From contig NZ_LR134167.1 of NCBI RefSeq assembly GCF_900635775.1, positions 777,001 through 841,000 of the forward strand: a DNA stretch of 64,000 bases, read 5' to 3'. Under the pieces are notes generated by a model. It was given only the letters and a program-made list of their open reading frames with translations. It made no database searches and had not been told where the DNA came from. Position numbers and translations under genes: made by a program. The stretch comes from Avibacterium volantium (lineage in GTDB: Bacteria > Pseudomonadota > Gammaproteobacteria > Enterobacterales > Pasteurellaceae). Shown piece by piece: positions 2,431-15,918 of the stretch (position 1 is the first letter of the stretch; each line of letters starts with the position of its first letter).

Positions 2431-2442
2431 TTAAAATCATAA

Positions 2443-2450
2443 AAATCAAA
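2443..2450. repeat. Target-site duplication, left copy (IS1016-like copy 1)
   Basis: AAATCAAA lies directly before the left inverted repeat and recurs at 3163-3170 directly after the right one. Eight bases is the duplication length known for the IS1595 family. The match shows that this copy sits where it transposed. Confidence 0.75.
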
Positions 2451-3162
2451 GGGCTGTAGTAGATTAGCAACAATGCTATACTACAAAAATGAAGGTAACA
2501 TATTGTAAATTAAAGAAATCCATACAGAAAAAACTGCTTGGGTTTTTTGTCGCAGAAGTTACTGCAAGAACAGCAGCAAATTTGCTAGATATTCAACCGA
2601 ATACAGCCGCTTTGTTCTACCATAAAATCAGGCTTGTGATTGGCTATCATTTATCCCTTGAAGTTAACGAGATTTTTGAGGGGGAAATTGAACTAGACGA
2701 AAGCTATTTTGGTGGTCATCGAAAGGGAAAACGAGGACGAGGAGCGGCTGGAAAAGTTGCTGTTTTTGGGTGACTAAAACGACAAGGAAAGGTATTTACT
2801 GTTGTGGTTGAAAACACCAAGAGTGAAACATTACTCCCTGTTATTAAAAGAAAAATCAAGCCTGATAGCTGGGTTTATACGGACACTTATCGCAGTTATG
2901 ATGCGCTTGATGTGAGTGAATTTCACCACGAACGAATCAATCATTCCGAGCTATTTGCGGTGAAACAAAATCATATTAATGGCATTGAAAATTTTTGGAA
3001 TCAGGCGAAGCGGATACTGCGAAAATATAATGGAATTAACCGAAAAAACTTTCCTTTATTCTTGAAGGAATGTGAATTTCGGTTTAACTTTGGGACACCA
3101 AAAGAGCAGTTAAAAATATTGCGAAAATGGTGTGAAATTTAGGGCTAATCTACTACAGCTCC
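2451..3162 (+). mobile_element. IS1016-like insertion sequence (IS1595 family), copy 1
   Basis: The ~712-bp element is bounded by inverted repeats: GCTGTAGTAGATTAGC at 2453-2468 and its complement at 3144-3159. It is flanked by an 8-bp direct repeat. It carries one transposase gene of the ISXO2/IS1595 type, close in sequence to the copy at 42858-43568. It lies just downstream of the type III restriction gene without interrupting it. The transposase has an internal stop, so the copy is probably unable to move by itself. Confidence 0.85.
2489..3142 (+). pseudogene. IS1016-type transposase, one in-frame stop
   Basis: The frame encodes 217 residues but is interrupted by TGA at 2771-2773, where the second copy of this IS reads TTA (Leu). 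Both halves are in the same frame, so a single substitution explains the break. Family features seen are the LDESYFGGHRKGKRG segment (first acidic residue of the catalytic site), YTDTYRSYDAL (second) and NGIENFWNQAKR (third region). The C-terminus, FGTPKEQLKILRKWCEI, is complete here but frameshifted in the second copy. Full activity would need stop readthrough or repair. Confidence 0.88.
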
Positions 3163-3257
3163 AAATCAAATTATTTTTAAATGAGATTACAAGAAAGATC
3201 GGAATATTTTCATCGCTAACAATATATAAAGCAATTTTATTAATTACCTAGAATCAG

Positions 3258-3282
3258 AAAGAGCGTTCCTCGAACGCTCTTT
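3258..3282 (-). terminator. Hairpin downstream of dps
   Basis: AAAGAGCGTTC at 3258-3268 and GAACGCTCTTT at 3272-3282 form an 11-bp perfect stem with a 3-base loop. It lies 54 bp past the dps stop, so it probably ends that transcript. The run of T after the stem is short. Confidence 0.6.
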
Positions 3283-3335
3283 ACTGGTGTTGCCTTTATC
3301 AACGGATTGTTAAAACACAGCCTTTTATTCAAAAG

Positions 3336-3815
3336 TTAGCTATTGCAACTTTCACAAGCTGCAGTAAACATCCACACTAATTTTTCTTGCTCTTTGATGT
3401 AGTCGCTCATTTGTGAAGCGGTGCCTTCATCATCTGCATCAGCGGCTAAGGCTAAGATTTCACGTTGTTGTTTTAACAAGGTTTTGAAACCACTTAATGT
3501 GCCACTTAAACAGTCTTGCGCTGCACTCACGCCTGTATGTTCTTTGATTAAAGATTTGGTTAAATACTCGCTGAACGCATTGCTTGGCGTGTAGCCTAAC
3601 GTCAAAATACGCTCTGCGATTTCGTCCACTTTCACCACTAAATCATCATAAATTTCCTCAAATTTTGCGTGTAATTCAAAGAAGTTTACCCCTTTAATGT
3701 TCCAGTGATAACCGCGCACGTTCATATAAAATACTTGATAAGTCGCAAGTAAATTATTGAGTTCTTGTGCTAATTTTTCTGAAGTCGCTTTGTCTAAGCC
3801 GATATTTGTTGCCAT
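3336..3815 (-). CDS. dps: Dps, DNA-binding ferritin-like protein
   Basis: The 159-residue protein has the length and pattern of Dps mini-ferritins. These form dodecamers in the cytoplasm that oxidise Fe(II) with peroxide and shield DNA in starved or oxidatively stressed cells. The ferroxidase set is readable with the family spacing: H37, H49, E53 (where E. coli has Asp), D64 and E68. The start at 3815 is preceded by AGAGGAGAACATACT, a good ribosome site. The gene is monocistronic, with a hairpin downstream. The region just upstream is AT-rich and probably holds the promoter, but I see no clear OxyR site. Confidence 0.93.
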   Translation of the reverse strand: MATNIGLDKATSEKLAQELNNLLATYQVFYMNVRGYHWNIKGVNFFELHAKFEEIYDDLVVKVDEIAERILTLGYTPSNAFSEYLTKSLIKEHTGVSAAQDCLSGTLSGFKTLLKQQREILALAADADDEGTASQMSDYIKEQEKLVWMFTAACESCNS

Positions 3816-3933
3816 AGTATGTTCTCCTCTGTTTTGTTGGAAATATAATAGGGATTAATCCCTTACAAATAAAATGGATATAAATGATAGATTTAATAGT
3901 TTAAAACTATTCATCACAAATCCATTGATAGCT

Positions 3934-4503
3934 TTAAGTTTTCAGCCAGTTAGCAATTAATGCCTTGCCCTGTTCTGAAATATAGGATTCTGGGTGAAAT
4001 TGTACGCCAAAAATTGGCAAATGGCGATGCTGCATTGCCATAATCACATCGTCTTCGCAAGTGGCAGTAATCTCCAATTGTGGCGGAAAATGCTGCTGTG
4101 AGACCGCCCACGAATGATAAAGCCCAATTTGAAATTGCGTAGGCAAGCCGAAAAATAAGACAGAATTTGACCGCACTTTGATTTGCTTTGCCTGCCCGTG
4201 TCGCACCTGCGGCAAATTATACAAGGTTGCACCAAAAAACTGGCACAGGGTTTGATGCCCAAGGCAAACGCCCAAAATTGATTTTCGATGCTGATAGCGC
4301 TCCAACATCGCAAACAGTTGTGGATAAGCACTCGGCACATCAGGACCGGGGGAAATCAAAATATGGCTGAAATTATCCACTTCATCAAGATTTAGCTGTT
4401 CCACATTCACCACAGAAAACGGCACGTCAAATTGACGAATTAAATCCACTAAATTATAGGTAAAAGAATCGTGATTATTGATAATTAATAAATTTGTGTT
4501 CAT
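3934..4503 (-). CDS. pabA: Aminodeoxychorismate/anthranilate synthase glutamine amidotransferase subunit
   Basis: The 189-residue class I glutamine amidotransferase supplies ammonia from glutamine to a chorismate-amidating partner. The nucleophile C80 lies in GVCLGHQTLC and the H170/E172 pair in VQFHPES. SPGP near residue 51 is the oxyanion strand. It is divergent from pabB with only 56 bp between starts, and pabC follows pabB, so a role in p-aminobenzoate (folate) synthesis is more likely than tryptophan synthesis, although TrpG and PabA are close relatives. An uptake word lies in the gene near 4173. Confidence 0.85.
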   Translation of the reverse strand: MNTNLLIINNHDSFTYNLVDLIRQFDVPFSVVNVEQLNLDEVDNFSHILISPGPDVPSAYPQLFAMLERYQHRKSILGVCLGHQTLCQFFGATLYNLPQVRHGQAKQIKVRSNSVLFFGLPTQFQIGLYHSWAVSQQHFPPQLEITATCEDDVIMAMQHRHLPIFGVQFHPESYISEQGKALIANWLKT

Positions 4504-4559
4504 TCTGAAGATTTTCTACAATGCTGGCATTTGATTATCTTACTTGATTAGCCCTTTTT

Positions 4560-5555
4560 ATGCTATTGAATGACTTTATTTCGCAAGCCAACCAACTAGG
4601 AAACCAGCGAGCGCCCTTTTTCTTTTTGATTGATTTTGAACAGCAAAAACCTGTTATTTGCCCCCTTGCACAATGCGCTGAACAAGGTATTTGGTTTGAA
4701 TTTGCCAGCCAAAATAATCTTGCAACGGCACAAAAAGCAACCCTAAAACAGCCCTTTAAGCTAGAAAAATTTCCCATCGATTTCGCCACTTATCAGCAAA
4801 GCTTTGAGATTGTGCAACAGGCGTTACAGCAAGGAAATTCCTATTTGCTTAATCTCACTTACGCCACGCCGATTGCGATAAATTACGATCTCAATACGCT
4901 GTTTTATGCCACGCAAGCGAAATATAAGCTCTTGTTTAAAAACGAGTTTGTCTGTTTTTCCCCTGAGCCTTTCGTGAAAATCGCGCATAACCAAATTTTC
5001 ACTTACCCAATGAAAGGCACGATTAACGCCAACTTGCCTGATGCAGAGAAGCAATTACTCAATTGTGAAAAAGAGCAACGGGAACATTACACCATTGTGG
5101 ATTTAATGCGTAATGATCTGGCTATCGTAGGGCAAAATGTGCAAGTAAAGCGTTTTCGTTATTTAGAAAAGATTTTCACCGAACGTGGTGCGATCTGGCA
5201 GACAAGTTCAGAGATTTGTGCCGACCTTAAGAAAAACTGGCAAGCCAACATCGGCACAATACTCAGCCAGCTTTTACCCGCAGGCTCAATCAGCGGTGCG
5301 CCGAAAGAAAAAACCGTTGCCACCATTCAACAAGCGGAATTAGCACCACGGGGCTATTACACTGGCGTGTTTGGCATTTTTAACGGCGAAAGCCTAGAAA
5401 GTGCGGTGGCCATTCGCTTTATTTCTCAGCAAAACGGAAACTATGCTTTCCACAGTGGCGGCGGCATCACCATTCAAAGCAGTGCCTCACAAGAATATCA
5501 AGAATTGTTAGAGAAAATTTATGTCCCTCTTAAATTTCAGCAAGGAACAAAATGA
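4560..5555 (+). CDS. pabB: Aminodeoxychorismate synthase component I (short form)
   Basis: The 331-residue protein belongs to the chorismate-binding family (TrpE/PabB/MenF). It aminates chorismate to 4-amino-4-deoxychorismate using ammonia from the PabA partner. The signature PAGSISGAPKEKT near residue 240 and ARGYYTGVFG following it are diagnostic. Classical PabB is about 450 residues; this form lacks most of the N-terminal TrpE-like domain and starts close to the catalytic core. It overlaps pabC by the four bases ATGA, suggesting coupled translation. No strong ribosome site precedes the ATG at 4560, so the start is only probable. Confidence 0.87.
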   Translation: MLLNDFISQANQLGNQRAPFFFLIDFEQQKPVICPLAQCAEQGIWFEFASQNNLATAQKATLKQPFKLEKFPIDFATYQQSFEIVQQALQQGNSYLLNLTYATPIAINYDLNTLFYATQAKYKLLFKNEFVCFSPEPFVKIAHNQIFTYPMKGTINANLPDAEKQLLNCEKEQREHYTIVDLMRNDLAIVGQNVQVKRFRYLEKIFTERGAIWQTSSEICADLKKNWQANIGTILSQLLPAGSISGAPKEKTVATIQQAELAPRGYYTGVFGIFNGESLESAVAIRFISQQNGNYAFHSGGGITIQSSASQEYQELLEKIYVPLKFQQGTK

Positions 5556-6136
5556 TGAATTTTCCCCTGTTTGAAACCCTGTGCATTGAAAATGGGCAAG
5601 TGCAAAATCTTGCCCTGCACCAACAGCGTTATGAAAACAGCCTGCGTGAATTTTATGTAGGACAATCTTATGAAATTTTTTCCCTCGCAAAAATTCTGCA
5701 AAAAAACACCGCACTTTGGGCAAATCTTCAAAGCCCGATTATCCGCTGCCGTATCGACTACAACGCCACGCAATATCACCTGCAATGTTTTCCCTATCAG
5801 CGTAAAACCTACCAACGCTTCCAGCCTGTGATTTGCGATGACATTGACTACCACCTGAAATACAGCGATCGTGCTATCTTCAACGAATTGCTAAAACAAA
5901 AAGGCGATTGTGATGAGATTATGATTATCAAAAATGGTAAGGTAACGGATTGCTCCATTGGTAATCTTGTGTTACGCCAAGGCTCACAATGGTTCACCCC
6001 CGACAGCCCCTTATTAATCGGTACCCAACGCACCGCATTACTGCAACAAAATAAAATCAAAGTGCGGTCAATTTTTCTCGCTGATTTAGCTGATTATGAG
6101 GAAATTAGACTGATTAATGCGTTAAATCCGTTGTGA
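5552..6136 (+). CDS. pabC: Class IV aminotransferase family protein, probable aminodeoxychorismate lyase
   Basis: The 194-residue protein is of the PLP fold-type IV family, shorter than E. coli PabC (~270). Readable parts are the N-terminal FETLCIENGQVQNLALHQQR segment, the central LKYSDR segment holding the likely PLP lysine, and VTDCSIGNLVL, matching the family T(E/D)-x-S-x-x-N motif. A PabC would split 4-amino-4-deoxychorismate to p-aminobenzoate and pyruvate. Its four-base overlap with pabB and the nearby pabA complete a three-gene PABA set. The function rests on family plus context. Confidence 0.78.
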   Translation: MMNFPLFETLCIENGQVQNLALHQQRYENSLREFYVGQSYEIFSLAKILQKNTALWANLQSPIIRCRIDYNATQYHLQCFPYQRKTYQRFQPVICDDIDYHLKYSDRAIFNELLKQKGDCDEIMIIKNGKVTDCSIGNLVLRQGSQWFTPDSPLLIGTQRTALLQQNKIKVRSIFLADLADYEEIRLINALNPL

Positions 6137-6162
6137 GTTTTTAACCGTTCTTTTGATGATTT

Positions 6163-6237
6163 GTGTAGGGGCTAGGCTGTGTGCCTGCTCGAATGGGGGG
6201 AAATGTCGGGCGGACACATAGGTCCACCCCTACGCAC
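6163..6237. repeat. Imperfect palindromic intergenic element
   Basis: In the 187-bp space between pabC and the toxin-antitoxin pair, GTGTAGGGG at 6163-6171 pairs imperfectly with CCCCTACGCAC at 6227-6237. The stretch is richer in G+C than its surroundings. It could be a small dispersed repeat or serve as a terminator for pabC; one window cannot decide. Confidence 0.45.
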
Positions 6238-6323
6238 TAAAGCCCCTTGAATCTGTTGTTGTTCACTGTAAAAAGTGCTAGGATCGGTTCAATATTCGTT
6301 CAAGTTTATTAGAGAGAAGCCAA

Positions 6324-6509
6324 ATGTTTAAAGAAAAAGGTTATGATGAATTTTTAGCAGAAAAAATCCGCCGTGCTGATGAAGATTTTAAAGCGGGGCG
6401 TGTTTTTACCCTTGAGCAAGCCAATGCAAAATGGCAGGCAACGATTGAACGAAAAGCAGCAGAACTCGCCGCACAAGAAGAAGCTCTGCTCGGTGGAGCT
6501 TATGACTAA
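6324..6509 (+). CDS. Antitoxin of a type II toxin-antitoxin pair
   Basis: This is a 61-residue, charged, mostly helical protein encoded immediately before a ParE/RelE-type toxin and overlapping it by 8 bp. That order and overlap are the usual layout of such pairs, in which the antitoxin wraps the toxin and often represses the operon. AGAGAGAAGC lies upstream of the ATG. I recognise no specific antitoxin family; the C-terminal half (ATIERKAAELAAQEEALLGG) looks like a toxin-wrapping helix. The role is inferred from the neighbour. Confidence 0.72.
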   Translation: MFKEKGYDEFLAEKIRRADEDFKAGRVFTLEQANAKWQATIERKAAELAAQEEALLGGAYD

Positions 6510-6786
6510 TATCATTTTATCTGATTTAGCCCTCAATGACATCGATGAGATTTTAGCCAGTGTTTATGAATTTACTGGTTTTATTTCCACGCCACAAAAA
6601 TTACAGCAAGAATTTAACAAAACTTTTGAACTTATCGCCTTTATGCCACAAGCTATCGGTCGAATGCGCAATGATGGAACGCGCGAAGCCTTTTGCCGTG
6701 GTTATCGTATTGTTTATGATATTTTAGGCGATGAAGTGCATATCAAAACCATTATCCATAGTCGCAGGCTTTATCCACGTCCTTAA
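6502..6786 (+). CDS. ParE/RelE-superfamily toxin
   Basis: The protein is 94 residues, starting at the ATG at 6502 inside the end of the antitoxin gene. The frame is open further upstream, but the overlap start fits a toxin-antitoxin pair. The C-terminal strands GYRIVYDILGDEVHIKTIIHSRRLYP are the usual end of RelE/ParE toxins, with basic and aromatic residues near the terminus. ParE members poison gyrase and RelE members cut ribosome-bound mRNA; I cannot tell which applies. AIGRMRNDGTREAFCRGYRI resembles the ParE-like mid-section. Confidence 0.8.
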   Translation: MTNIILSDLALNDIDEILASVYEFTGFISTPQKLQQEFNKTFELIAFMPQAIGRMRNDGTREAFCRGYRIVYDILGDEVHIKTIIHSRRLYPRP

Positions 6787-6876
6787 TAAGCTCTTTATAT
6801 AAATAGATTTTCCTTTCAGTTTTCGGCAAGATTACATAGAATAAAACCATCTTTTCATTCAATAAAAGGAAATAAA

Positions 6877-7296
6877 ATGACAAAAATTATTCATACCGAA
6901 AAAGCGCCAGCGGCGATTGGGCCTTATGTACAAGCGGTGGATTTAGGCAATTTAGTACTAACTTCTGGGCAAATTCCGGTTAATCCTGCAACAGGTGAAG
7001 TGCCGGTGGATATTGTGGCTCAAGCACGCCAATCTTTAGAAAATGTTAAAGCCATTATTGAGCAAGCAGGTTTAACTGTGGCTGATATTGTGAAAACGAC
7101 GGTTTTTGTTAAAGACTTGAATGATTTTGCTACTGTAAATGCAGAATATGAACGTTTCTTTAAAGAAAATAATCACCCTAATTTCCCTGCTCGCTCTTGT
7201 GTTGAAGTGGCTCGATTGCCAAAAGATGTGGGTGTAGAAATTGAAGCCATTGCGGTGAGAAATTCCAAAGGATATGGAATTTCTATCTGTAGATAA
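6877..7296 (+). CDS. ridA: RidA family reactive enamine/imine deaminase
   Basis: The 139-residue protein hydrolyses 2-aminoacrylate and related enamines made by PLP enzymes, limiting damage to those enzymes. Family landmarks are KAPAAIGPYVQAV at the N-terminus, LTSGQIPVNPATG, and the C-terminal PARSCVEVARLPKDVGVEIEAIAV with the conserved arginine in the active site. Typical RidA stops soon after EAIAV; here about a dozen residues (RNSKGYGISICR) follow. The ATG has a clear AAAAGGAAATAAA ribosome site. The stop lies 16 bp before the left end of the large transposon. Confidence 0.9.
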   Translation: MTKIIHTEKAPAAIGPYVQAVDLGNLVLTSGQIPVNPATGEVPVDIVAQARQSLENVKAIIEQAGLTVADIVKTTVFVKDLNDFATVNAEYERFFKENNHPNFPARSCVEVARLPKDVGVEIEAIAVRNSKGYGISICR

Positions 7297-7304
7297 TAAT
7301 CACA

Positions 7305-7312
7305 AAAAATAA
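7305..7312. repeat. Target-site duplication, left copy (8.6-kb transposon)
   Basis: AAAAATAA lies directly outside the left terminal inverted repeat, and an identical AAAAATAA follows the right one at 15880-15887. Eight bases is the IS1595-family length. The sequence is A-rich, so chance identity is easier than for mixed sequence, but the position is exact on both sides. Confidence 0.8.
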
Positions 7313-7337
7313 CGGTATTATGTAGCAGTTGCACAAA
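7313..7337 (+). repeat. Left terminal inverted repeat of the transposon
   Basis: These 25 bases, starting CGGTATTATGTAGCAG and ending CACAAA, are the exact reverse complement of 15855-15879. Identity ends sharply on the inner side. Confidence 0.9.
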
Positions 7338-7366
7338 ACCAAAACTTGAATAATTAACCGTTGAAA

Positions 7367-7404
7367 AGAAAGCCTTTAGCTTAATGATAAGTTAAAGGCT
7401 TTCT
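7367..7404. terminator. Hairpin inside the left end of the transposon
   Basis: AGAAAGCCTTTA at 7367-7378 pairs with TAAAGGCTTTCT at 7393-7404, a 12-bp stem. It lies 32 bp past the stop of the leftward gene at 7436-7948 and may insulate the element from ridA transcription. Confidence 0.6.
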
Positions 7405-7435
7405 GATTTAAAGGATATTGAAAAATATAACTCAC

Positions 7436-7948
7436 TTAAAAAGAAACATCGTCATCGAAATCCCAAACAGGATTTTCCATTTCAGTAGAAGATGTCTTTT
7501 TAGATGATTTTTTACTGACAGAATCTTTTTCCCATAACAAATCTTCCATTACTGGTGGATAGGCAACATTTGCCCTTGCTACAAAATCCGATTGGGTGAG
7601 ATATTTTCTGATTCGAACCGAGCATCGTAGATTACGTTCATCTTCTGCAAAACTCACTTCAATATCTGAGATATTTGGACTTTCATCGCTCTCTGATTCA
7701 GAGAGGTTAATTCTAAACACAGCAAGCACAACTTGATTATCCGCAATTTCATACGCCCCATAAAAAGTAAAGAAATCCGAAGGTAGTCGTTCAACATGTT
7801 TCGCCATTGAGCTTAAATCACTAAATAAAGACATGTAATTACGCTCAAAGCTCACGTTAGAATAAAGCAAAGCAATCCCTTGCATAAACGCTTGAAAATG
7901 CTCGTAAGACATTTTAGTAAGGTTTGTATTGATTCTTTTTTCAGTCAT
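7436..7948 (-). CDS. Unknown protein with SSB-like acidic C-terminal tip
   Basis: I do not recognise the 170-residue body. It starts at an ATG with an AGAGGA ribosome site, has a compact N-terminal two-thirds, then a Ser/Lys-rich linker (about 148-158). It ends in WDFDDDVSF, almost the DFDDDIPF tip by which bacterial single-stranded DNA binding protein docks RecO, PriA, exonuclease I and other repair proteins. The body does not read as an obvious SSB OB-fold, but low-similarity OB-folds cannot be excluded. It is the outermost gene on the left of the transposon. A role in element replication or repair, or in competing with host SSB, is inference. Confidence 0.6.
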   Translation of the reverse strand: MTEKRINTNLTKMSYEHFQAFMQGIALLYSNVSFERNYMSLFSDLSSMAKHVERLPSDFFTFYGAYEIADNQVVLAVFRINLSESESDESPNISDIEVSFAEDERNLRCSVRIRKYLTQSDFVARANVAYPPVMEDLLWEKDSVSKKSSKKTSSTEMENPVWDFDDDVSF

Positions 7949-8056
7949 TTTGTATTCCTCTTTGTTGCAATGTTACGCTGCATTTAGGTAGCGTGAATCG
8001 TTTGAAGCAGTCAGGCTTGCTAAACCAAACAAGGCTTCGGCTTTTTTATTACCTTG

Positions 8057-9046
8057 CTAATACCCTATAAAATCTCGTGATGGCAAGGTGTTTAAGCAAC
8101 ATTTTAGTAATTGCTCAAATTTCTCTTTTACACTTTTTCGGCGATTATCTTCTCGCCACGCTATTTCATTTGCATAAAACATCAGATATTTATTGTTCAT
8201 CTTATGATAGACACCTGTAATTGCTCGCCGTAGCCGTGCGAAAAAGGATTCGGCTAGGTTATTCGTTACGCCGTCAATCGAACAGTACTCTTTCGAATGG
8301 TTTACTCGCCATAAATCATAATGAAAGGCTAAACTGTCGTAAGCAGAGTTTTCATCAGCATGAATGGTACTATTTGGCTTGACTAGACGTTGCGTTAAAT
8401 GAAGTATATCTTGCGTATTTTCTTCTTTGATTAAGGCTACAATACTTCTATCAGCCCCTTTCATCACTTCTTGATTAGCGGCACGTTGACGGAATACCAA
8501 TACACAAGATTTATCTGCACGCTGATAACGTTTCTTTCATCTATCAATACGTTTATGGAGAAAGTTTTTAGGACGAATGTAGTTGTTCATGTAAGCGCCA
8601 TCAATATGAACTTCGCCACTTAAATGTGTTAAATCTTTGGCTTTATCAAGCGATTCACGAAATTTATGTAGCAATACCCACGCTGTTTTATATTGCACGT
8701 TGAGCTTGTGTGATAGTGTAATAGCAGATAATCCTTTGCTTTCAGTCGAAAAATAGAAAATTGCCAATACAATTTTACGCAAAGAAAGTTTTGCACCTTG
8801 AAAAATAGTGCCTGCTGTAATAGAAAAACGATGTTGGCAATGTTTGCACTGCCATTGTTTACGAGTAGAAATGAAATAGGCGTGGTGGCGAGTATGGCAA
8901 TGCGGACAAATAACATCGTTTATTTCATCTACATTACCCCATCGAGCTTGTTTCAATAGCTGAAAAATCTCGTCATCAGACAAGCTCACCAAGCTATCCA
9001 TAGATAGCTGGCGTGCTGTCGCTGATAACCGAAAATGTTGTGCCAT
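8057..9046 (-). pseudogene. IS1595-type transposase, one in-frame stop
   Basis: The translation begins MAQHFRLSATARQLSM, close to the intact transposase at 13910. It has the zinc-ribbon pairs CPHC and CKHC, the HIDGAY segment with the first catalytic Asp, HADENSAYD with the second, and NLAESFFARLRR. A TGA at 8537-8539 follows RIDR; the rest continues in the same frame, so one nonsense change explains the break. It is a diverged relative of the intact copy, not a recent duplicate. ACCCTATAAAAT at 8062-8073 and its complement at 9153-9164 may be the remains of its own inverted repeats. Confidence 0.88.
8062..8073 (+). repeat. Inverted repeat (left) around the decayed transposase
   Basis: ACCCTATAAAAT here is the exact reverse complement of 9153-9164, on the far side of the broken transposase. 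The repeat overlaps the last codons of that gene, as is common in compact insertion sequences. The outer ends are not clearly defined. Confidence 0.55.
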
Positions 9047-9152
9047 AGAAACAAAAATCCCTTCATTAAAACTCTGAAATTTCCAAGCCTTTTTAGGCTT
9101 AAAAAACAAAGTCATAATGAAGGGACTATTCTCGGTGGGCAAAAAGATATTA

Positions 9153-9164
9153 TTTTATAGGGTG
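9153..9164 (-). repeat. Inverted repeat (right) around the decayed transposase
   Basis: ATTTTATAGGGT is the partner of 8062-8073. Just outside it GTCAAG recurs (near 9170, 9185 and 9250), perhaps transposase-binding repeats. Confidence 0.5.
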
Positions 9165-9324
9165 CTTGTCAAGCGTTTTCTTTTGTCAAGTGCTTTTTGA
9201 AATTTTCTGCATTTTTGAATATAGCGAGTGCCAAAAAGGTCTTAGTTCTGTCAAGAGAAATTTTTTGACAAGTTTAATTGATGATATTTTAAACACCTTG
9301 AGTGATTATCTTAAGTGGCTTATT

Positions 9325-9474
9325 CTATAATTTAGACGTACTACTTTGGAGGATTTTATCAGGATTTTCCCAACGGTTTGCTTTCAAAAGTTGGAAGGCT
9401 TCATCTTCACTTAGACGGAAGATATGTTTAAGGGATAATGTTTTAGATTTGCTTGAAAGTAAGTAATGATCCAT
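9325..9474 (-). pseudogene. N-terminal remnant of a third IS1595-type transposase
   Basis: A 49-residue frame begins MDHYLLSSKSKTLSLKHIF and continues RLSEDEAFQLLKANRW. It matches the first ~40 residues of the intact transposase (HFLLSSSARKLS, RLSDAEAFSLLHELRW) but ends before the zinc-binding cysteines. AAGGA precedes the ATG. No remainder of the gene lies downstream, so it is a truncated relic, or less likely a short protein kept for DNA binding. Confidence 0.7.
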
Positions 9475-9481
9475 AAGTATT

Positions 9482-9557
9482 CCTTGTGTGTACAAGGTAC
9501 TCAAAGCTAAACGCTAGACATAAAAAATCGCCCACTCGAATATAGGAATGGCGATTT
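9482..9557. other. Two hairpins between transposase remnant and nuclease gene
   Basis: CCTTGT-GTGT-ACAAGG at 9482-9497 is a perfect 6-bp stem. AAATCGCC at 9525-9532 pairs with GGCGATTT at 9550-9557. The second lies beyond the nuclease stop (9665) in the leftward direction and could end the restriction operon transcript. The rest of 9475-9664 shows no gene. Confidence 0.5.
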
Positions 9558-9664
9558 AACCCTTTTAAAACTGTATAAGTTATGAGGTATGTAGATCACA
9601 ATTTTGTGATTGCTATCATACAATAGTTTTTTCTGTAATGTTCTTATGCATATTCATTTATCCA

Positions 9665-11116
9665 TCAACCAAATTTGGAAAGTGTTAAATTTGAAATTTG
9701 AGTACTAATATCTTTTCCCAAATTAGCAACAATGATAGCTTGTATATCAGCATAAGAAATATCTCGATTATTAGAAATAATATTATTGTATAAATACTCT
9801 GCTAATGTATCGGCTGTTATGAGAACTATATCTTGTGCTTCAATATCATAACGTACACTAGGTACATATCTTGGAGTAATAACAATAGTATAATTTGCAC
9901 TAATTAAAGTTCTGTGGCGTTTTAATCTACCTGAATTAATCATACTTAATTTATTTTTTGTTGATTTAGCTTCAATAGAAAATTTTTCATTTATTGGCAA
10001 ATACATACATTCAATATCTGTTCTGCCTGCTCCTGCTAACCATTGAGCTTCTACATCAATGAATAAATTAAAAGCTTCCTCAAGAATTTTCTCAAATTTG
10101 CCAGATGTGCTATTATCTGGATTCTTGGAATATTCTGTGATTAATTTAGGAATATTTAAAATATGAGATTCAAAAGAGATTGTTTCGCCAATTTCTGCTA
10201 AAAGAAGCTCTGGGTAAAAAGAATAAATTTCCTTAGTCACATCATTTGATTTTCGTTGACTATCAGATAATAAGATAGGGGTATCTAAAAAAGAATACTT
10301 GTTCAATAATTTATCAATAAAATTAGTCAAATTATCATTAATTTCTACATAGCCATTATTTGCCTTTCTTGCTGTTGGAGGTGATTTACTTCCATCTTTT
10401 TGAGGATGATAAAGTTTTTGCTCTATATCTCCATTATTAATTTTAAAAATGTGTAAGCTACCTAACAATGGCACAATGTAGTATTGCCACTCATATACAG
10501 ATTTAACAACTTTATGTTGTATTTCTGATAATTCATTAAGTTTCTCATTCCAAGATTTTTTTCTAGAATTTAATATACTCTTGACTAGAAATTCATATTT
10601 GGCTTCATCTATAGATATTGTATGAATAATAATTTTATATACTTCATAATGATATAGCCTACCTTGTAGGCGTTTATCTAAAAGCAGTTTAAAAATTAAT
10701 CTAAATGGATATAGTAAAAAGCATTCACTAGGCTTACTATATGGATGAGGAAACTGCATACTAATAAGCATACAAGAAAAAATTTTGCTTAATTTATCTT
10801 TATCATGTAGATATTTCAGGAAAAGATTTCCTAATGGACTAAAAATAAATTTATTTTCATCATTTATTCTATCTGAGTACCCAAACATAAAATAAGATAA
10901 CCCATCTAATTTATGATTAATTGTGTCCAAAGGTTTATCACGTAAAGATTCTCTTGGATTATATAATTCAGATTCACTGAATATATCATACATCGCATCT
11001 TTATCTTTTTTTGAAACAGAAGATTTATTGCTTTTTAAATACAAAGCAACTTCAATTAATAGCTGAATATTATTAGTATGTTTTTTAAATATCCAAATTT
11101 GATCATCATTTAACAT
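9665..11116 (-). CDS. Restriction endonuclease, probably type IIS (HgaI-like)
   Basis: The protein has 483 residues from the ATG at 11116, chosen because GGAG lies 9 bases upstream and it overlaps the end of the methyltransferase gene; the frame itself is open to 11203. A PD-(D/E)XK-type site reads D367 (GAGRTDIE) and E382-A-K384 (FSIEAKST). It is the last gene of an operon with two m5C methyltransferases. Two m5C enzymes plus one nuclease is expected for an asymmetric site methylated separately on each strand. HgaI of Haemophilus gallinarum (GACGC) is known to have this make-up; assignment to it is inference. Strongly AT-rich. Confidence 0.8.
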
Positions 11117-12182
11117 TAATATTTTCTCCATCAGGAAAACATATTGCTGAAAGTAATTTGGGTGGAATAGCCTCACCAATAATAGTTCTAATATAAGTCT
11201 CACTGGAGCCTGGTGGAAATTCTATATTTTCATCGATAGAACTCACAATGAAAGTTTCCAATAAACTTAACACTCTAGGATCAGAATAAGTACCGTCTAA
11301 TTGTAATCTACCTGGGTGAATATTGTTATGTGAACTAATACTACCACTATATGTAGTTCTTGCTGGAGCTGGTTTATCCCATTCCATTCTTTTATAAGTA
11401 TTGTGAAAACCTTTAATTCTTTCCCCATTATCTTTCTTTGGGTAAAAAATAGGATTACTAATAGCACTTGTTCCTGGTTTTGTATGACGGATAGCTTCTA
11501 TGATAGATGGTTTTACATTAGGAGCAGAATGCCATTTGATAGATGAAACTTCCCCTGGTTCAAGCGGCGGTAAATGCCCTATTGCTCGCTGTAAAGAAAT
11601 TTCTGCTTGTATAGTAGGTAGTTTCCACGTAATACCATATTTATACATTTTTATTATAGCTCTAGGTCTTGACTGACAAATTCCATAATCTTTTGCATTT
11701 AAAATAACAATATCAATTTGATATTTTGAAGCATATTTTATTTTTAGAATTTCTTCTAGAAGTAATAATTGTCCATTATATGGGAAATACATCTCAATGA
11801 ATCTAGGAACATTCTCAATTAGGATAAAATCCAAATTAAGAACATCAATAAATTCAAATACTTCAAAAATTAGAAAATTACGATTATCTTTAATAAAATG
11901 ATCTTGATGTTTATTTTTTCCTACTGAACTTAATCCTTGACAAGGTGGTGTTGCTAATAAAAATTTTACATTATTTTGTTGAGCGGAAAGAAGTATCTCA
12001 CGTTTTAATTTTTCGTCTGAGATATCACCTTGAAACATTTTTGTTTCTGGATAAAAGAATTGATAAGTGTCCGCACGTTTTTTAAGTAATTCATTAGCAA
12101 CAACAAAATTTAGATTTCCTTTATGGAGATCTAACTCACCAATTCCTGCACTAGAAAAAAGCGACATTGCATTAATTTTCAT
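11106..12182 (-). CDS. DNA (cytosine-5) methyltransferase 1
   Basis: The 358-residue m5C methyltransferase has the family motifs in order: [10 protein letters not shown] (motif I, AdoMet), TPPCQG with catalytic C81 (IV), IENVPR with E122 (VI), Q169-S-R-P-R173 (VIII) and IGEAIPP (X, with Glu where most have Asn). The target-recognition part around 210-290 includes [11 protein letters not shown]. It overlaps the upstream methyltransferase by 11 bp and the nuclease start by 11 bp, so the three genes are translationally coupled. It presumably protects one strand of an asymmetric site. Confidence 0.9.
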
Positions 12183-13245
12183 TAAATATTTCCCTAGTTA
12201 TATTTTCTATAAGTAATGGAGGGATACATTCTCCAATGATCTGTCTAATCAATATTTCTGGAGTATCATCTGGGATTTCCCAATTATCAGGTAACCCTGT
12301 TAATCTCATTAATTCTAAAACAGATAATACTCTAGCATCAGAATATGTACCATCTAATAACGGTCTACCTGGATGAACATTACGTTGAGAGCTAATTGCA
12401 TCATTACGAATAGTTATTGTTGGAGCTGGTTCATCCCATCGAATTCTACGATAACTAGAGTGATATCCTTTAACTTTTTCACCATTTGCTTTTCTAGGAT
12501 AATGAACTAAATTCTCAAATGCTGATTTTCCTGTAGGAGTATGCTTCATCCACTCTATTTGTTGCTCTGTATGCCCCCTGCCATAATGCCATTTCAAACC
12601 TGAATGTTTACCTGACTCAATAGAAGGTAAATTGCCGATTGCTTGCTCCACACTTACTATGTTTTGTTTTAAAGGTAAATTCCAAATTGTTCCTTTTTTA
12701 TTTAGCCTAATAATAGCCCTTTTTCTTCTTTGTGGCGTCCCATAGTCTGCAGCATCTAGAATATCAAAATGTATATGGTATTCGCTTCCAAACTCATCTT
12801 CTAAAATATTCTTAATAGGTGTTAATTTATTATCAATATAAAGCTCTAATTTTAATAAAAACGGAACATTTTCTATTAAAATATAAGCTGGCTTAAGTTT
12901 TTTTATCATCGCTATCACATACATAATGAGATAATTTCTGTTATCATTAGCCATATTACTAACATCTCGATTTTTTCCTGCTACACTCATACCTTGACAA
13001 GGGGGAGATGCAATTAAAAAATCTACTTGATTAGTAAGGGCAATATTTAATACTTTATTAAAAATACGTTGATCTCTAATATCCCCTATCACCATCTTAT
13101 GGTTTGGATAAATTTTTTGATATAAATCAGCTCTTTTTTTTATTAATTCGTTAGCAACTATAATATCAATACCAACTCTCGATAAGAAATATTCTCCTAT
13201 TCCTGCACTAGAAAAAAGAGATAATCCCATTATATTTTTTTTCAT
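12172..13245 (-). CDS. DNA (cytosine-5) methyltransferase 2
   Basis: The 357-residue m5C methyltransferase is paralogous to its downstream neighbour. Both share [20 protein letters not shown] and IHPGR/VHPGR-type segments. C83 lies in PPCQG, E125 in IENVP, Q172-x-R174-x-R176 form motif VIII, and IGECIPP is motif [13 protein letters not shown] is the recognition-domain start. ATG 13245 is preferred because ATAGG lies 6 bases upstream; an in-frame ATG at 13269 has no ribosome site. As first gene of the operon it would be made before the nuclease. Confidence 0.9.
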
Positions 13246-13491
13246 AAATAACCTATCTATATTTATCATGAAATTAATGATTAAATCTAATTACATACAA
13301 TTTTATTTGTAGAATCTTGTCTATTATTTTGTGATCAAATTTTCTCGTTTTAGTTCTTCGAATTATTTACCATGAATATCACTTAATAACTTGAATGTAC
13401 CACATAATTTTATTTATATTTAAATAGAGAGTAAGAGACAGTATAGATGTTGGATAATCCAAATACATTTAAGCTTTGCTTTGCTAAATAG
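13246..13491. other. AT-rich spacer upstream of the restriction operon
   Basis: I see no gene here. The stretch must hold the promoter for the leftward methyltransferase-nuclease operon, but no clear -35/-10 pair stands out. There is no obvious controller-protein box of paired short palindromes either. Confidence 0.4.
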
Positions 13492-13824
13492 TCACTTTCT
13501 AGATAAGAATTTAAAGGATACATCAAAAGCAATTTTCATATCACTCGACATTTTTCGATAGTAGCTGATTAATTGCTTTTCTTTTTCGCTTAATTCATTT
13601 TTATTCGTAGAACTACGAAACATTTCTCCTTCTCCACGCATTAGCCAATTCAAATCGACATTCAGCACATCACTAATTTTGATTAAAACTTCAGCACTCG
13701 GTTCACGTTCATTGAGCAAATAGTTTTGAAGGGTACGGTAAGGCATATCAAGTAATTCAGCAAAGGCTTTGATATTCAAGCCTTTATACTCCATCACTTC
13801 TCTTAAACGGTTGCTTATACTCAT
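13492..13824 (-). CDS. XRE-family helix-turn-helix regulator
   Basis: The 110-residue protein has an N-terminal HTH (LNIKAFAELLDMPYRTLQNYLLNEREPSAEVLIKISDVLNV, about 15-55), then NWLMRGEGEMF and a short helical tail. This form is typical of phage and mobile-element repressors in Pasteurellaceae. It lies 222 bp upstream of the restriction operon on the same strand and is divergent from the intact transposase, so it could restrain transposase expression or time nuclease production. The spacing is longer than usual for a restriction controller protein. Function is inferred. Confidence 0.75.
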   Translation of the reverse strand: MSISNRLREVMEYKGLNIKAFAELLDMPYRTLQNYLLNEREPSAEVLIKISDVLNVDLNWLMRGEGEMFRSSTNKNELSEKEKQLISYYRKMSSDMKIAFDVSFKFLSRK

Positions 13825-13862
13825 TTTTGTATTCCATATTGACTAAAATGTAGTTTTTGAGT

Positions 13863-13875
13863 ATGATTAAATCAT
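13863..13875. promoter_or_regulatory. Possible operator between regulator and transposase
   Basis: ATGAT-TAA-ATCAT is a near-palindrome in the 85-bp divergent space between the XRE gene and the transposase. Such a site could bind the regulator and control both genes. It is AT-rich, so chance is a real alternative. Confidence 0.35.
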
Positions 13876-13909
13876 CTTATATACCCATATTGTACATTTT
13901 TTTAGATCT

Positions 13910-14923
13910 ATGGCACAGCATTTTTTATTATCTAGCTCTGCAAGAAAATTAAGTCCACTTAAGATAGCTCGCCTATCTGATGCGGAAGCATTTTCTTTAT
14001 TGCATGAACTACGCTGGAGAAGTGAAAACGAACAAGTTTGCCCTAAATGCGGTGTTCAACATCAAGCCTACTTTATCTCTACTCGCAAGCAGTGGCGATG
14101 CAAACATTGTAAGCATACTTTTAGTATTACATCAGGTACAATTTTTGCGAATCATAAGTTGCCGCTTCAAACCTATCTATTTACTATTGCATTATTTGTA
14201 AATGCGGTAAAAGGGATTTCCGCTTGCCAGCTCTCTCGAGATTTGAATGTGCAATACAAAACGGCTTTTACCCTTGCGCATAAGATTCGTGAAAGCCTGA
14301 TTATCCAACGTGAGTTATTCCCCCTAGTAGGCGAAATACATATAGATGGAACTTATGTACATTCTGCGCCACGCCCAAAGAATAAAAAGGCGGAACGTGT
14401 AGATAGACGATTAAAAGAAAATACTAATCCTAACAAACGTGCAGTATTAGTGATGCGTGAGCGTTATTCAGAACAAGAAAGGGCTTCTAATCCGCAATTA
14501 GTGGGTGCAAAGAAAACCATCACTTTCCCTATTCTCTCAGAGAACACAGAAACGGTGAAGAAATTAGCCACGGCGTACATTGAGCCAAACAGCCGTATTC
14601 ATGCGGACGAAAACTCAGCCTACGATGAATTGATGGTGAATTACGACCTACAACGAGTAAACCATCAACGTGAATATCGTAGCGATGAGGGCATTACCAA
14701 CAACCTTGCTGAAAGCTATTTCGCACGCTTTAAACGTATGTATTACGGACAAGTCCACAAGATGAGTAACGTGTATCTTGATAATTATGCCAATGAAGTC
14801 GCCTATCGTGAAGATACTCGTAAACTGGATAATTTAACCATTTTCAATGATGTGACCAGTAAATGCCTCAGTACATCATCAGATAATGCTTGGAAAGGCT
14901 ATTGGCAAGGTAATCACAGATAA
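13910..14923 (+). CDS. IS1595-type transposase, intact
   Basis: The uninterrupted 337-residue transposase has an N-terminal zinc ribbon (C44/C47 and C64/C67), a helical DNA-binding part, then the ISXO2-like catalytic domain. D146 lies in HIDGTY, D233 in HADENSAYDE, and the third region is NNLAESYFARFKR (264-276). At 337 residues it is longer than the IS1016-type enzyme (~217) because of the zinc ribbon. It is the only complete transposase within the 25-bp inverted repeats and is the best candidate to move the whole element. It is divergent from the XRE gene. No strong ribosome site precedes the ATG. Confidence 0.9.
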   Translation: MAQHFLLSSSARKLSPLKIARLSDAEAFSLLHELRWRSENEQVCPKCGVQHQAYFISTRKQWRCKHCKHTFSITSGTIFANHKLPLQTYLFTIALFVNAVKGISACQLSRDLNVQYKTAFTLAHKIRESLIIQRELFPLVGEIHIDGTYVHSAPRPKNKKAERVDRRLKENTNPNKRAVLVMRERYSEQERASNPQLVGAKKTITFPILSENTETVKKLATAYIEPNSRIHADENSAYDELMVNYDLQRVNHQREYRSDEGITNNLAESYFARFKRMYYGQVHKMSNVYLDNYANEVAYREDTRKLDNLTIFNDVTSKCLSTSSDNAWKGYWQGNHR

Positions 14924-14943
14924 GTAGAAAGACTGGTAATGTA

Positions 14944-15378
14944 ATGGCAAAGAAAATCTATTTAAGTCAAATTCAGGCAAAAATTGACCGCTTGCAGCGT
15001 GAGCGAAAACAAGTGCTAGAACACCTTACGTTAGTGGAAGATAAACTCAATAAACTACAAGCTGCCATTGAAATTATGCAGGAAGAAGCCCTGACTGATG
15101 AATACAATACGGAGCTTTATACTTATCAAACTCATAAACGCCATTTCAAAGGCAAGTTACGCCAAATGGTATTGGCAGAGATGAAGGCTCAACCAAACCA
15201 TGATTTTACCGTTAATGAATTGATTAAGCTCGTTCTTATTCGAGATAAACAAGAACCAATCATTCAACCGCAACATACGGTTTCAGTGCGTGGTGCATTA
15301 AAACACTGGCTCAATAAAGGTGTGGTAGAACGAGTGGCATTAAAAGCAAATGATGTGCGGTGGAGATTGAAAATATAA
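14944..15378 (+). CDS. Coiled-coil / winged-helix protein of unknown function (transposon gene B)
   Basis: I do not recognise this 144-residue protein. Residues ~5-55 form a charged heptad-like coiled coil (QAKIDRLQRERKQVLEHLTLVEDKLNKLQ). Residues ~75-144 look like a winged helix: LRQMVLAEMKAQPNHDFTVNELIKLV, then VRGALKHWLNKGVVERV and a final strand VRWRLKI. It starts 20 bp after the transposase, so the two are probably co-transcribed. Its stop abuts the stop of the opposed gene, which has the same architecture. A DNA-binding accessory for transposition is plausible but unproven. Confidence 0.7.
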   Translation: MAKKIYLSQIQAKIDRLQRERKQVLEHLTLVEDKLNKLQAAIEIMQEEALTDEYNTELYTYQTHKRHFKGKLRQMVLAEMKAQPNHDFTVNELIKLVLIRDKQEPIIQPQHTVSVRGALKHWLNKGVVERVALKANDVRWRLKI

Positions 15379-15792
15379 CTACATTGCCTTCAAACGCCAA
15401 TAACACGTTTTCCCTTCTACCTTTTTCTCAACCAATGAATGTTTAACAAGATGATTTAACGTACTATGCATTGTTTGCAAGTGTAAGCGTGGCACACCAT
15501 TATCAATAGGCTGGTTATCTAATTTCAATGCTTGAAGGGTAATTTCATTCGTATGAAACCATTTTTCAGGTTGCTTTTTAAGGATATGCGCCACTAATTG
15601 GCATGGAGACGACTGAAAGCGTACATTGCGAGATTTCTTGCTTAATAAAAAATCTGAATCTCTTGCGTGATTTAGCGCAGTTCGATAGTCTAAAATTTTC
15701 TGATTTAATCCCTTTATCTTTGCTTCAAATTCAACCCGTTCTTGTTCTGCAAGGGAAATTTCTTCAATCAATAATTTTTCTAACGCATTCAT
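15379..15792 (-). CDS. Coiled-coil / winged-helix protein of unknown function (transposon gene C)
   Basis: The 137-residue protein has an N-terminal coiled coil (LAEQERVEFEAKIKGLNQKILDY) and a C-terminal winged-helix-like part (LVAHILKKQPEKWFHTNEIT, then MHSTLNHLVKHSLVEKK) ending CYWRLKAM. Its plan and its ending (WRLK) match the gene B product, so the two are likely distant paralogues. Gene B ends at 15378 and this one at 15379, with no base between their stop codons. Its ATG is 63 bp from the right terminal repeat. No known family recognised. Confidence 0.68.
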   Translation of the reverse strand: MNALEKLLIEEISLAEQERVEFEAKIKGLNQKILDYRTALNHARDSDFLLSKKSRNVRFQSSPCQLVAHILKKQPEKWFHTNEITLQALKLDNQPIDNGVPRLHLQTMHSTLNHLVKHSLVEKKVEGKTCYWRLKAM

Positions 15793-15828
15793 TTTTTCTT
15801 ACCTTTAAATTACAATGAGATAAGAAAA

Positions 15829-15872
15829 ATGTAGCAGAAACACCTAGTTAAATCTTTGTGCAACTGCTACAT
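15829..15872. repeat. Subterminal inverted repeat at the right transposon end
   Basis: ATGTAGCAG at 15829-15837 is the reverse complement of CTGCTACAT at 15864-15872, the latter inside the terminal repeat. The left end lacks the inner copy. It could fold as a hairpin or be a second transposase contact. Confidence 0.55.
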
Positions 15873-15879
15873 AATACCG
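15855..15879 (-). repeat. Right terminal inverted repeat of the transposon
   Basis: Exact 25-base reverse complement of 7313-7337. It is followed at 15880-15887 by AAAAATAA, the second copy of the target duplication. Confidence 0.9.
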
Positions 15880-15918
15880 AAAAATAAGGAAAAATATCAC
15901 CGCTCTTTTTATTCTTGA

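Follow-up and report, generated by a model that had tools for sequence, protein, structure and literature searches.

We examined a stretch of 64,000 nucleotides from Avibacterium volantium (the window), in which an insert of 8,567 bp (7313..15879) lies between ridA and argO. The insert carries a type II restriction-modification system between transposon ends, and we argue below that it very probably belongs to a family of mobile elements with exchangeable cargo. Its parts, with coordinates, strand and basis, are as follows.

7305..7312, no strand: left copy of the target duplication, AAAAATAA, 8 bp (read directly)
7313..7337, plus strand: left terminal inverted repeat, 25 bp, CGGTATTATGTAGCAGTTGCACAAA (direct reading, repeat pairing, genome scan)
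7367..7404, no strand: terminator-like hairpin directly inside the left end (inverted-repeat pairing)
7436..7948, minus strand: C4, 170 aa, function unassigned (reading frame, clustering over 48 elements)
8045..9046, minus strand: TnpL, second IS1595-type transposase, a pseudogene interrupted in frame by a TGA and a TAG (Pfam on the pieces)
9665..11131, minus strand: restriction endonuclease, 488 aa, HgaI-type cargo (PADLOC REase_II, 357 bits; 1169 relatives)
11106..12182, minus strand: C5-cytosine methyltransferase, 358 aa (PF00145, PADLOC MTase_II)
12172..13269, minus strand: C5-cytosine methyltransferase, 365 aa, 47% identical to the 358-aa enzyme (PF00145, PADLOC MTase_II)
13492..13824, minus strand: helix-turn-helix (HTH) gene, C2 (HTH_3; frame gene in 44 of 48 elements)
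13910..14923, plus strand: TnpR, intact IS1595-type transposase, 337 aa (PF12762, PF12760, NF033547)
14944..15378, plus strand: C1a, 144 aa, predicted long helix and winged helix (structure model)
15379..15792, minus strand: C1b, 137 aa, distantly related to C1a and convergent with it (clustering and comparison)
15855..15879, minus strand: right terminal inverted repeat, 25 bp (exact reverse complement of the left repeat)
15880..15887, no strand: right copy of the target duplication, AAAAATAA (read directly)

The two terminal repeats match at 25 of 25 positions (100%) as exact reverse complements, and the same word AAAAATAA stands at 7305-7312 and at 15880-15887. Direct reading thus confirms both the perfect repeats and the flanking 8-bp word that the original prediction had reported from the sequence alone. 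When up to three mismatches are allowed, the 25-mer end occurs in the whole 2.23-Mb genome only at the two ends of the insert, and a reversed control of the 25-mer finds no site in this genome at the same tolerance. TnpR scores 154 bits against PF12762, 58 bits against PF12760 and 134 bits against NF033547 (cut-off 75). With a transposase of DDE domain and zinc ribbon, an 8-bp duplication and short terminal repeats, the element shows the features of the IS1595 family, in agreement with its earlier description as an IS1595-type element with intact ends and a type II system as cargo. Pfam, PADLOC and NCBIfam also uphold the proposed gene list of two methyltransferases, a nuclease, a regulator, an intact 337-residue transposase and three small genes. 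What this list had overlooked is a second, divergent transposase, TnpL, at 8045-9046 on the minus strand; an intact TnpL from another locus (L132) scores 141 bits against NF033547. The nuclease is counted as 488 residues from an ATG start, and the longest reading frame begins at a GTG.

To look at the empty site, we fused the flanks of the insert around one target word and aligned them to six congeners, which makes this a comparison between species. The fused flanks align through the junction in three of the six, namely L173 (bases 1-1109 of 1109, 89.7% identity), L178 (1-1109 of 1109, 83.2%) and L176 (1-1084, 82.3%), and L174, L175 and L177 match on the argO side only. In L176 the junction reads GCAAAAATAAGG, with the target word single and followed by a hairpin and a run of T. 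The hairpin and T run indicate that the insertion landed next to a terminator in the ridA-argO interval. In L173 and L178 the target word itself is diverged. The expectation that relatives would contain the word once and no insert is therefore borne out, in that ridA and argO are joined in three congeners and L176 has the word once.

To place the insert among its relatives, we scanned 140 genomes of Pasteurellaceae from 43 genera, with one genome per species. TnpR matched 58 of these genomes and 27 of the genera at an E value of 1e-30 or better, and many full TnpR copies were accompanied by a second, divergent transposase match some kilobases off. The inner 22 bases of the end (three or fewer mismatches) were found in 97 of the 140 genomes, against single hits in four genomes for the reversed control. 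Elements were delimited in 69 loci and in 40 stretches picked from TnpR matches in the family genomes. A span was accepted where two ends with three or fewer mismatches enclosed a transposase match, so that cargo played no part in the selection; we removed duplicates, the single-transposase span L117 and pairings that were nested or wrong (L069, L094, L161). This procedure yielded 48 spans of 5.4-11.6 kb with a median of 8.9 kb. Since L073 and L110 end at a contig edge, both flanks could be read for 46 of them, and the 8-bp duplication is exact in 36 and has one mismatch in another. The 36 exact duplications comprise 35 different words with 85% A+T. The insert of the window is an IS1595-type element with type II cargo, as predicted, yet it does not stand alone as an unusually large member: it is one of the 48 elements that we delimited in its family.

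The elements also share a frame, which we derived from simple gene calling and clustering with every element oriented so that TnpR points rightward. In this orientation the order is a C4 gene of 160-174 aa in some elements, TnpL leftward, cargo, the HTH gene leftward, TnpR rightward and one or more C1-type genes. A C4-type gene is present in 14 of the 48 elements (13 of these with a TnpL of subclade A, see below), the leftward HTH gene in 44, and a C1-type gene in 45, most often as a convergent pair. Similar terminator-like hairpins lie just inside the left ends of many elements, and the 25-bp repeat is nearly identical across all of them, even though the ends reassort. Because the HTH gene is present in 44 of 48 elements with varied cargo, it counts as a transposon gene and not as a regulator private to the restriction system. 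The original prediction's regulator and its three unknown genes are present, but their relatives in elements with other cargo mark them as owned by the transposon. The HTH-TnpR intergenic region comes in several sequence classes, a pattern compatible with self-regulation through local operators. The structure model of C1a (mean predicted local distance difference test score, pLDDT, 84) consists of a long helix followed by a winged helix. Its best matches in the PDB are mostly winged-helix proteins at E values of 0.002 and above, with no PDB structure matched at 0.001 or below, so that the predicted winged helix would denote a fold class, not a function. For C4, Pfam, PADLOC and NCBIfam gave no match, and its structure model is weak (mean pLDDT 68, 7 sequences).

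Two other explanations bear on this frame. One is that a host island of restriction genes came to lie by chance between short mobile ends, and that small pairs of inverted repeats are the real mobile units. Short pairs of 114-175 bp with similar ends do exist, and one end of the L158 span is such a pair. However, exact duplications surround long spans in 36 of 46 cases, a conserved frame lies inside these spans, and the whole insert is missing between ridA and argO in relatives, which refutes the idea for the window unless a precise loss took place; we regard it as extremely improbable. The other explanation is a pseudo-compound transposon, in which two separate IS1595-type insertion sequences (IS) flank the cargo and move together through their outer ends. 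Two related transposases in opposite orientation near both ends would suit such an arrangement, and Tn7560, formed by two copies of ISApl4, is an IS1595-type precedent in Pasteurellaceae (PMC12561309, available part). Against it, TnpL and TnpR are two clades in fixed positions instead of copies of one IS, the window genome contains no inner copy of the 25-bp end to bound an inner IS, and the frame includes an HTH gene in 44 and a C1 gene in 45 of 48 elements. Furthermore, the Pasteurellaceae loci examined contained no intact IS that consists of a single gene of the TnpL or the TnpR clade, L166 being a 1.6-kb deletion form. A pseudo-compound origin is therefore very unlikely in our judgement, if a little less remote than the chance island.

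Small forms with related ends were observed as well. L166 (5755-7345) is a form of 1,591 bp whose ends are perfect and whose duplication is exact, and it contains only a C1-type gene and a shortened TnpL; this small derivative may have moved in its present form. Pairs of inverted repeats that resemble miniature inverted-repeat transposable elements (MITEs), 154-175 bp long and with similar ends, occur in L004 (1498-1651), L015 (1498-1662) and L030 (1351-1525), two with an exact 8-bp duplication and one with a single mismatch. Close pairs with similar ends were also seen in many genomes of the 140-genome end scan.

The slot between TnpL and the HTH gene holds very different genes in different elements. 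Cargo was called with Pfam and PADLOC, and proteins that were not scanned take the label of their cluster representative. Restriction-modification cargo is present in 34 of the 48 elements, a tally that counts L131 as type III from a Mod-like gene alone, without its 876-aa partner, and includes L070 and L150 although their nuclease is uncertain. The largest group (15 elements) encodes a fusion of PD-nuclease and N6-methyltransferase, mostly with a specificity protein, a layout which we take to recall BcgI. The others are type III (six), type IIG or Eco57I-like (four), HgaI-like (two), AlwI-type (two), an EcoRI-type methyltransferase with a GmrSD_N/HNH protein (L070 and L150), FokI-type (one), LlaJI-like (one) and another type II nuclease with a D12 methyltransferase (one). 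Five further elements carry other defence genes only: retron I-B (L110, and L146 by clustering), a PD-T4-4-like system (L083), an AbiLi-like system (L155) and a PDC-S22 candidate (L064). Outside these defence classes we found YadA-type proteins (L065, L141, and L075 by clustering), RTX genes (L158), VasX_N (L168) and, in the scanned cargo of L134, L147, L148 and L162, no recognised function, with DUF6575 and DUF4013 among the domains. In the L158 span (3121-11537), an exact 8-bp duplication flanks the outside, one end has TnpL and the other a MITE-like pair, and RTX-type genes lie within; the L168 span (1687-10208) has imperfect ends, flanks that differ at two of eight positions and a VasX_N protein inside. 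The proposed search for the repeat around other cargo thus found its ends around many different cargoes. The original prediction had also named repeats that are widespread without a link to the cargo as evidence against it. Read literally this is what we observed (varied cargo, short cargo-free pairs), but it shows modularity and leaves mobility unaffected.

Comparison of individual elements suggests how these cargoes are exchanged. The window element shares positions 1-2229 (93.8% DNA identity) and 6193-8068 (HTH, TnpR and C1a, 89.6%) with L132, with unrelated cargo between, and positions 1-2223 (93.6%) and 6649-8567 (91.7%) with L063, where the cargo between is again not shared. With L074 from Haemophilus seminalis, the common part is instead 2049-8020 (91.6%), from the cargo through C1a, and the two elements have TnpL of different subclades and different left ends. 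The cargo proteins of this pair are 97.1% (nuclease), 98.6% and 96.4% (methyltransferases) identical. This shared cargo supports the earlier proposal of a route for restriction operons among Pasteurellaceae. Homologous recombination in the shared modules would be the simplest cause of the exchange. We also considered exchange through preferred DNA uptake. We counted the uptake word AAGTGCGGT 35 times in the remaining 55 kb of the window but not once within 7313-15879, and 14 times in the 419 kb of the 48 elements (1.4 expected; four for a scrambled word). Because the elements are poor in uptake sequences, preferred uptake is unsupported.

The hosts are mostly Pasteurellaceae. In a class-wide search, three of 369 genomes match TnpR at an E value of 1e-40: the window's own, one of the same family and one partial match. 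In Bergeriella denitrificans (Neisseriaceae), L103 contains TnpL together with a fragment of TnpR, and L131 is a doubtful span. A contig of a metagenome-assembled genome labelled Streptococcus (L110, 1-9677) is one element from end to end and bears a coverage of 299 in its name; a multicopy element, a circular form or misbinning are possible causes. CABDVE010000001.1 (L083, L096) is titled Pseudomonas stutzeri NCTC11607, but by its coordinates it corresponds to genome G128, which is classified in Pasteurellaceae within the genus group of Rodentibacter caecimuris; the record is probably mislabelled. The exact 25-mer also occurs once in one contig of a viral collection (L184, 5408-5432).

We then turn to the question of how the two transposases are related. 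In a quick maximum-likelihood tree of 101 rows, 41 TnpR sequences form one clade (support in the Shimodaira-Hasegawa-like approximate likelihood ratio test, SH-aLRT, 99), 43 TnpL sequences and one Bergeriella sequence form another (99), and the two clades are united (98) with the single-transposase relatives outside. This topology indicates that TnpL and TnpR are sister paralogous IS1595-type transposases. The catalytic D, D and E are kept in 42, 43 and 43 of 43 TnpL and in 41, 41 and 40 of 41 TnpR, where the last miss is a gap. For pairs restricted to a synonymous divergence (dS) of 0.1-1.2, the median ratio of nonsynonymous to synonymous divergence (dN/dS) is 0.11 for TnpL (118 pairs) and 0.06 for TnpR (145 pairs), values which show that both are under purifying selection. 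We counted 54 distinct TnpR copies with 300 residues or more. A divergent TnpL lies within 10.5 kb of 45 of them, seven have less than 8.5 kb of sequence on the TnpL side, and two (L077, L095) have no TnpL; the left end of L095 still resembles those of subclade-A elements. Both transposase clades divide into two subclades, A and B, and the 39 elements in which TnpL and TnpR could each be assigned include every combination: LA-RA 11, LA-RB 7, LB-RA 9 and LB-RB 12 (Fisher p 0.34). Five of the LB-RB elements (L139, L141, L142, L144, L147) were placed by hand from the tree, since the scripted rule gave their TnpR no subclade.

Single-transposase relatives in other Pseudomonadota have ends with 1-8 mismatches in 25 and a transposase that is 36-53% identical. 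Of the eight such loci with an end pair, six show an exact 8-bp duplication (L099, L101, L106, L109, L126, L127), and L100 and L117 do not; no end pair was found in L104, L105 and L140. A small end protein resembles C1 by BLAST only in L117 (28%); in other loci we judge it to be C1-like by eye. Duplication of the transposase in a single-transposase ancestor would be the simplest account of this history.

These relatives also raise the possibility that the family consists of ordinary IS1595-type elements with passengers, with TnpR as the working transposase and TnpL as an ancient duplicate that is being lost. The broken TnpL of the window and the existence of one-transposase relatives with similar ends are in keeping with it, and in MTnSag1 and tISCpe8 one transposase, 25-bp ends and 8-bp duplications are enough for an element with a passenger gene (PMC5704250, available part). 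The family does carry passenger genes, as one-transposase passenger elements (tIS) do, but with two paralogous transposases. Moreover, TnpL keeps its catalytic residues, has a dN/dS of 0.11, stands beside 45 of 54 TnpR copies and has stops in 5 of 43 copies as aligned, compared with 6 of 41 for TnpR; because of these residues, this ratio and these stops, TnpL does not decay faster than TnpR. We lean against the reading in which TnpR acts alone, while taking it as a serious contender. The conserved residues and purifying selection speak for a lasting role of both transposases, and the broken window TnpL and the free reassortment speak for partial redundancy, so that a lasting need for both is an idea we hold slightly short of probable. 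One transposase per end, or excision by one and integration by the other, are examples of how labour might be divided.

Taken together, the insert in the window is best explained as a member of a family of mobile transposons, mostly of Pasteurellaceae, with one frame and an exchangeable cargo slot, and we hold this with considerable confidence. Its ends, 8-bp duplications, empty site, conserved transposase pair, purifying selection and reassortment of ends and cargo can be read from the compared sequences. In the proposed model, the frame is formed by two divergent DDE transposases that point outward, TnpL lying close to one end and TnpR on the side of the other, together with the HTH gene beside TnpR and one or two small winged-helix proteins. 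The transposases would bind to the end that the elements share and carry them into AT-rich targets of 8 bp. TnpR, and perhaps the cargo as well, may be repressed by the HTH protein. The slot between TnpL and the HTH gene would hold interchangeable cargo, usually a restriction-modification or other anti-phage system, that could be swapped by homologous recombination within the shared end modules, and the HgaI-like system is the present cargo of the window element. That the elements move, and why they have two transposases, we infer from these features.

Several observations weigh against this model. No transposition was observed, and the empty site comes from other species that are about 82-90% identical. 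Nine of the 46 readable elements have flanks that differ at two to seven of eight positions (L064 and L152 among them look shifted by one base), L131, L154, L158 and L168 retain the frame only partly, L131 has transposase fragments only, and nine of the 48 elements are without recognised defence cargo. The window TnpL is broken by one TGA and one TAG, and this copy would therefore be immobile, moved by TnpR alone or mobilised from elsewhere; the independent combination of TnpL and TnpR subclades argues against a tightly co-evolved pair. Finally, no vehicle between cells was found: TnpR has no match in phages, a megablast search of the window element against plasmids gave no match, and TnpR matches 17 plasmid records only distantly, all below 60% identity. 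From their genus names, we take these plasmids to be mostly alphaproteobacterial.

The cargo of the window itself probably has a known counterpart. The two C5-cytosine methyltransferases and the nuclease lie in one operon and match type II models; the nuclease has no match in Pfam or NCBIfam, and is 61% identical to a nuclease from Lactococcus petauri (among 1169 relatives). According to the available part of one paper, an HgaI homologue is present in a strain of L. petauri, and Haemophilus gallinarum, the source of HgaI, is now Avibacterium volantium (PMC12376442). HgaI likewise has one nuclease and a pair of m5C methyltransferases, each of about 360 aa, and the same part of this paper makes no mention of a transposon (no 'transpos') (PMC12376442). 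The matched L. petauri gene may or may not be the homologue of the paper. The cargo resembles HgaI, a type IIS system with the recognition sequence GACGC, and it is plausible that the window contains HgaI itself.

The movement of restriction and other defence systems is often left at the term 'defence island'. In the present family the vehicle itself is defined: its ends are exact, duplications flank it, its slot is fixed, and its defence cargo is of many kinds. Two intact paralogous transposases in one transposon make the need for two testable, the small winged-helix proteins are candidate helpers, and the slots of L134, L147, L148 and L162 may contain new defence genes. Whether the whole family represents a new class of transposon, with two diverged DDE transposases sharing labour, reassorting ends and a fixed anti-phage slot that would make it a standard carrier throughout one bacterial family, is a tentative proposal about which our doubts slightly prevail.

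Our literature searches, which did not reach preprints, most subscription papers or ISfinder, yielded no account of two paralogous IS1595-type transposases in one element and none of IS1595-type elements as carriers of restriction systems. From the available parts of the sources, the closest known systems are MTnSag1 and tISCpe8, which share the IS1595-type DDE transposase, 25-bp repeats, 8-bp duplications and a cargo gene with the present elements (PMC5704250). They are 1.7-2.0 kb long with one transposase and a lincosamide-resistance gene (PMC5704250), whereas the present family has two paralogous transposases, a multi-gene frame, a length of 5.4-11.6 kb and mostly defence cargo. ISApl4, Tn7560 and IS1016-type elements are likewise of the IS1595 superfamily, with 8-bp duplications and hosts among Pasteurellaceae (PMC12561309). 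However, ISApl4 is an IS of 712 bp with 14-bp ends of other sequence, Tn7560 consists of two copies of one IS, and the IS1016-type ends of ISApl4, GGGGCTGTACTAGA, look different from the present 25-bp ends (PMC12561309, as far as available), for which the original prediction had suggested a kinship to IS1016-like ends. The single-transposase relatives L099, L101, L106, L109, L117, L126 and L127 differ from the family in having one transposase and a length of 2.9-5.4 kb, and resemble it in the 8-bp duplication, which is exact in six of the seven. Since the transposases clearly belong to the IS1595 type, a family for which elements with passenger genes have been published, we regard the family as a variation on a known kind.

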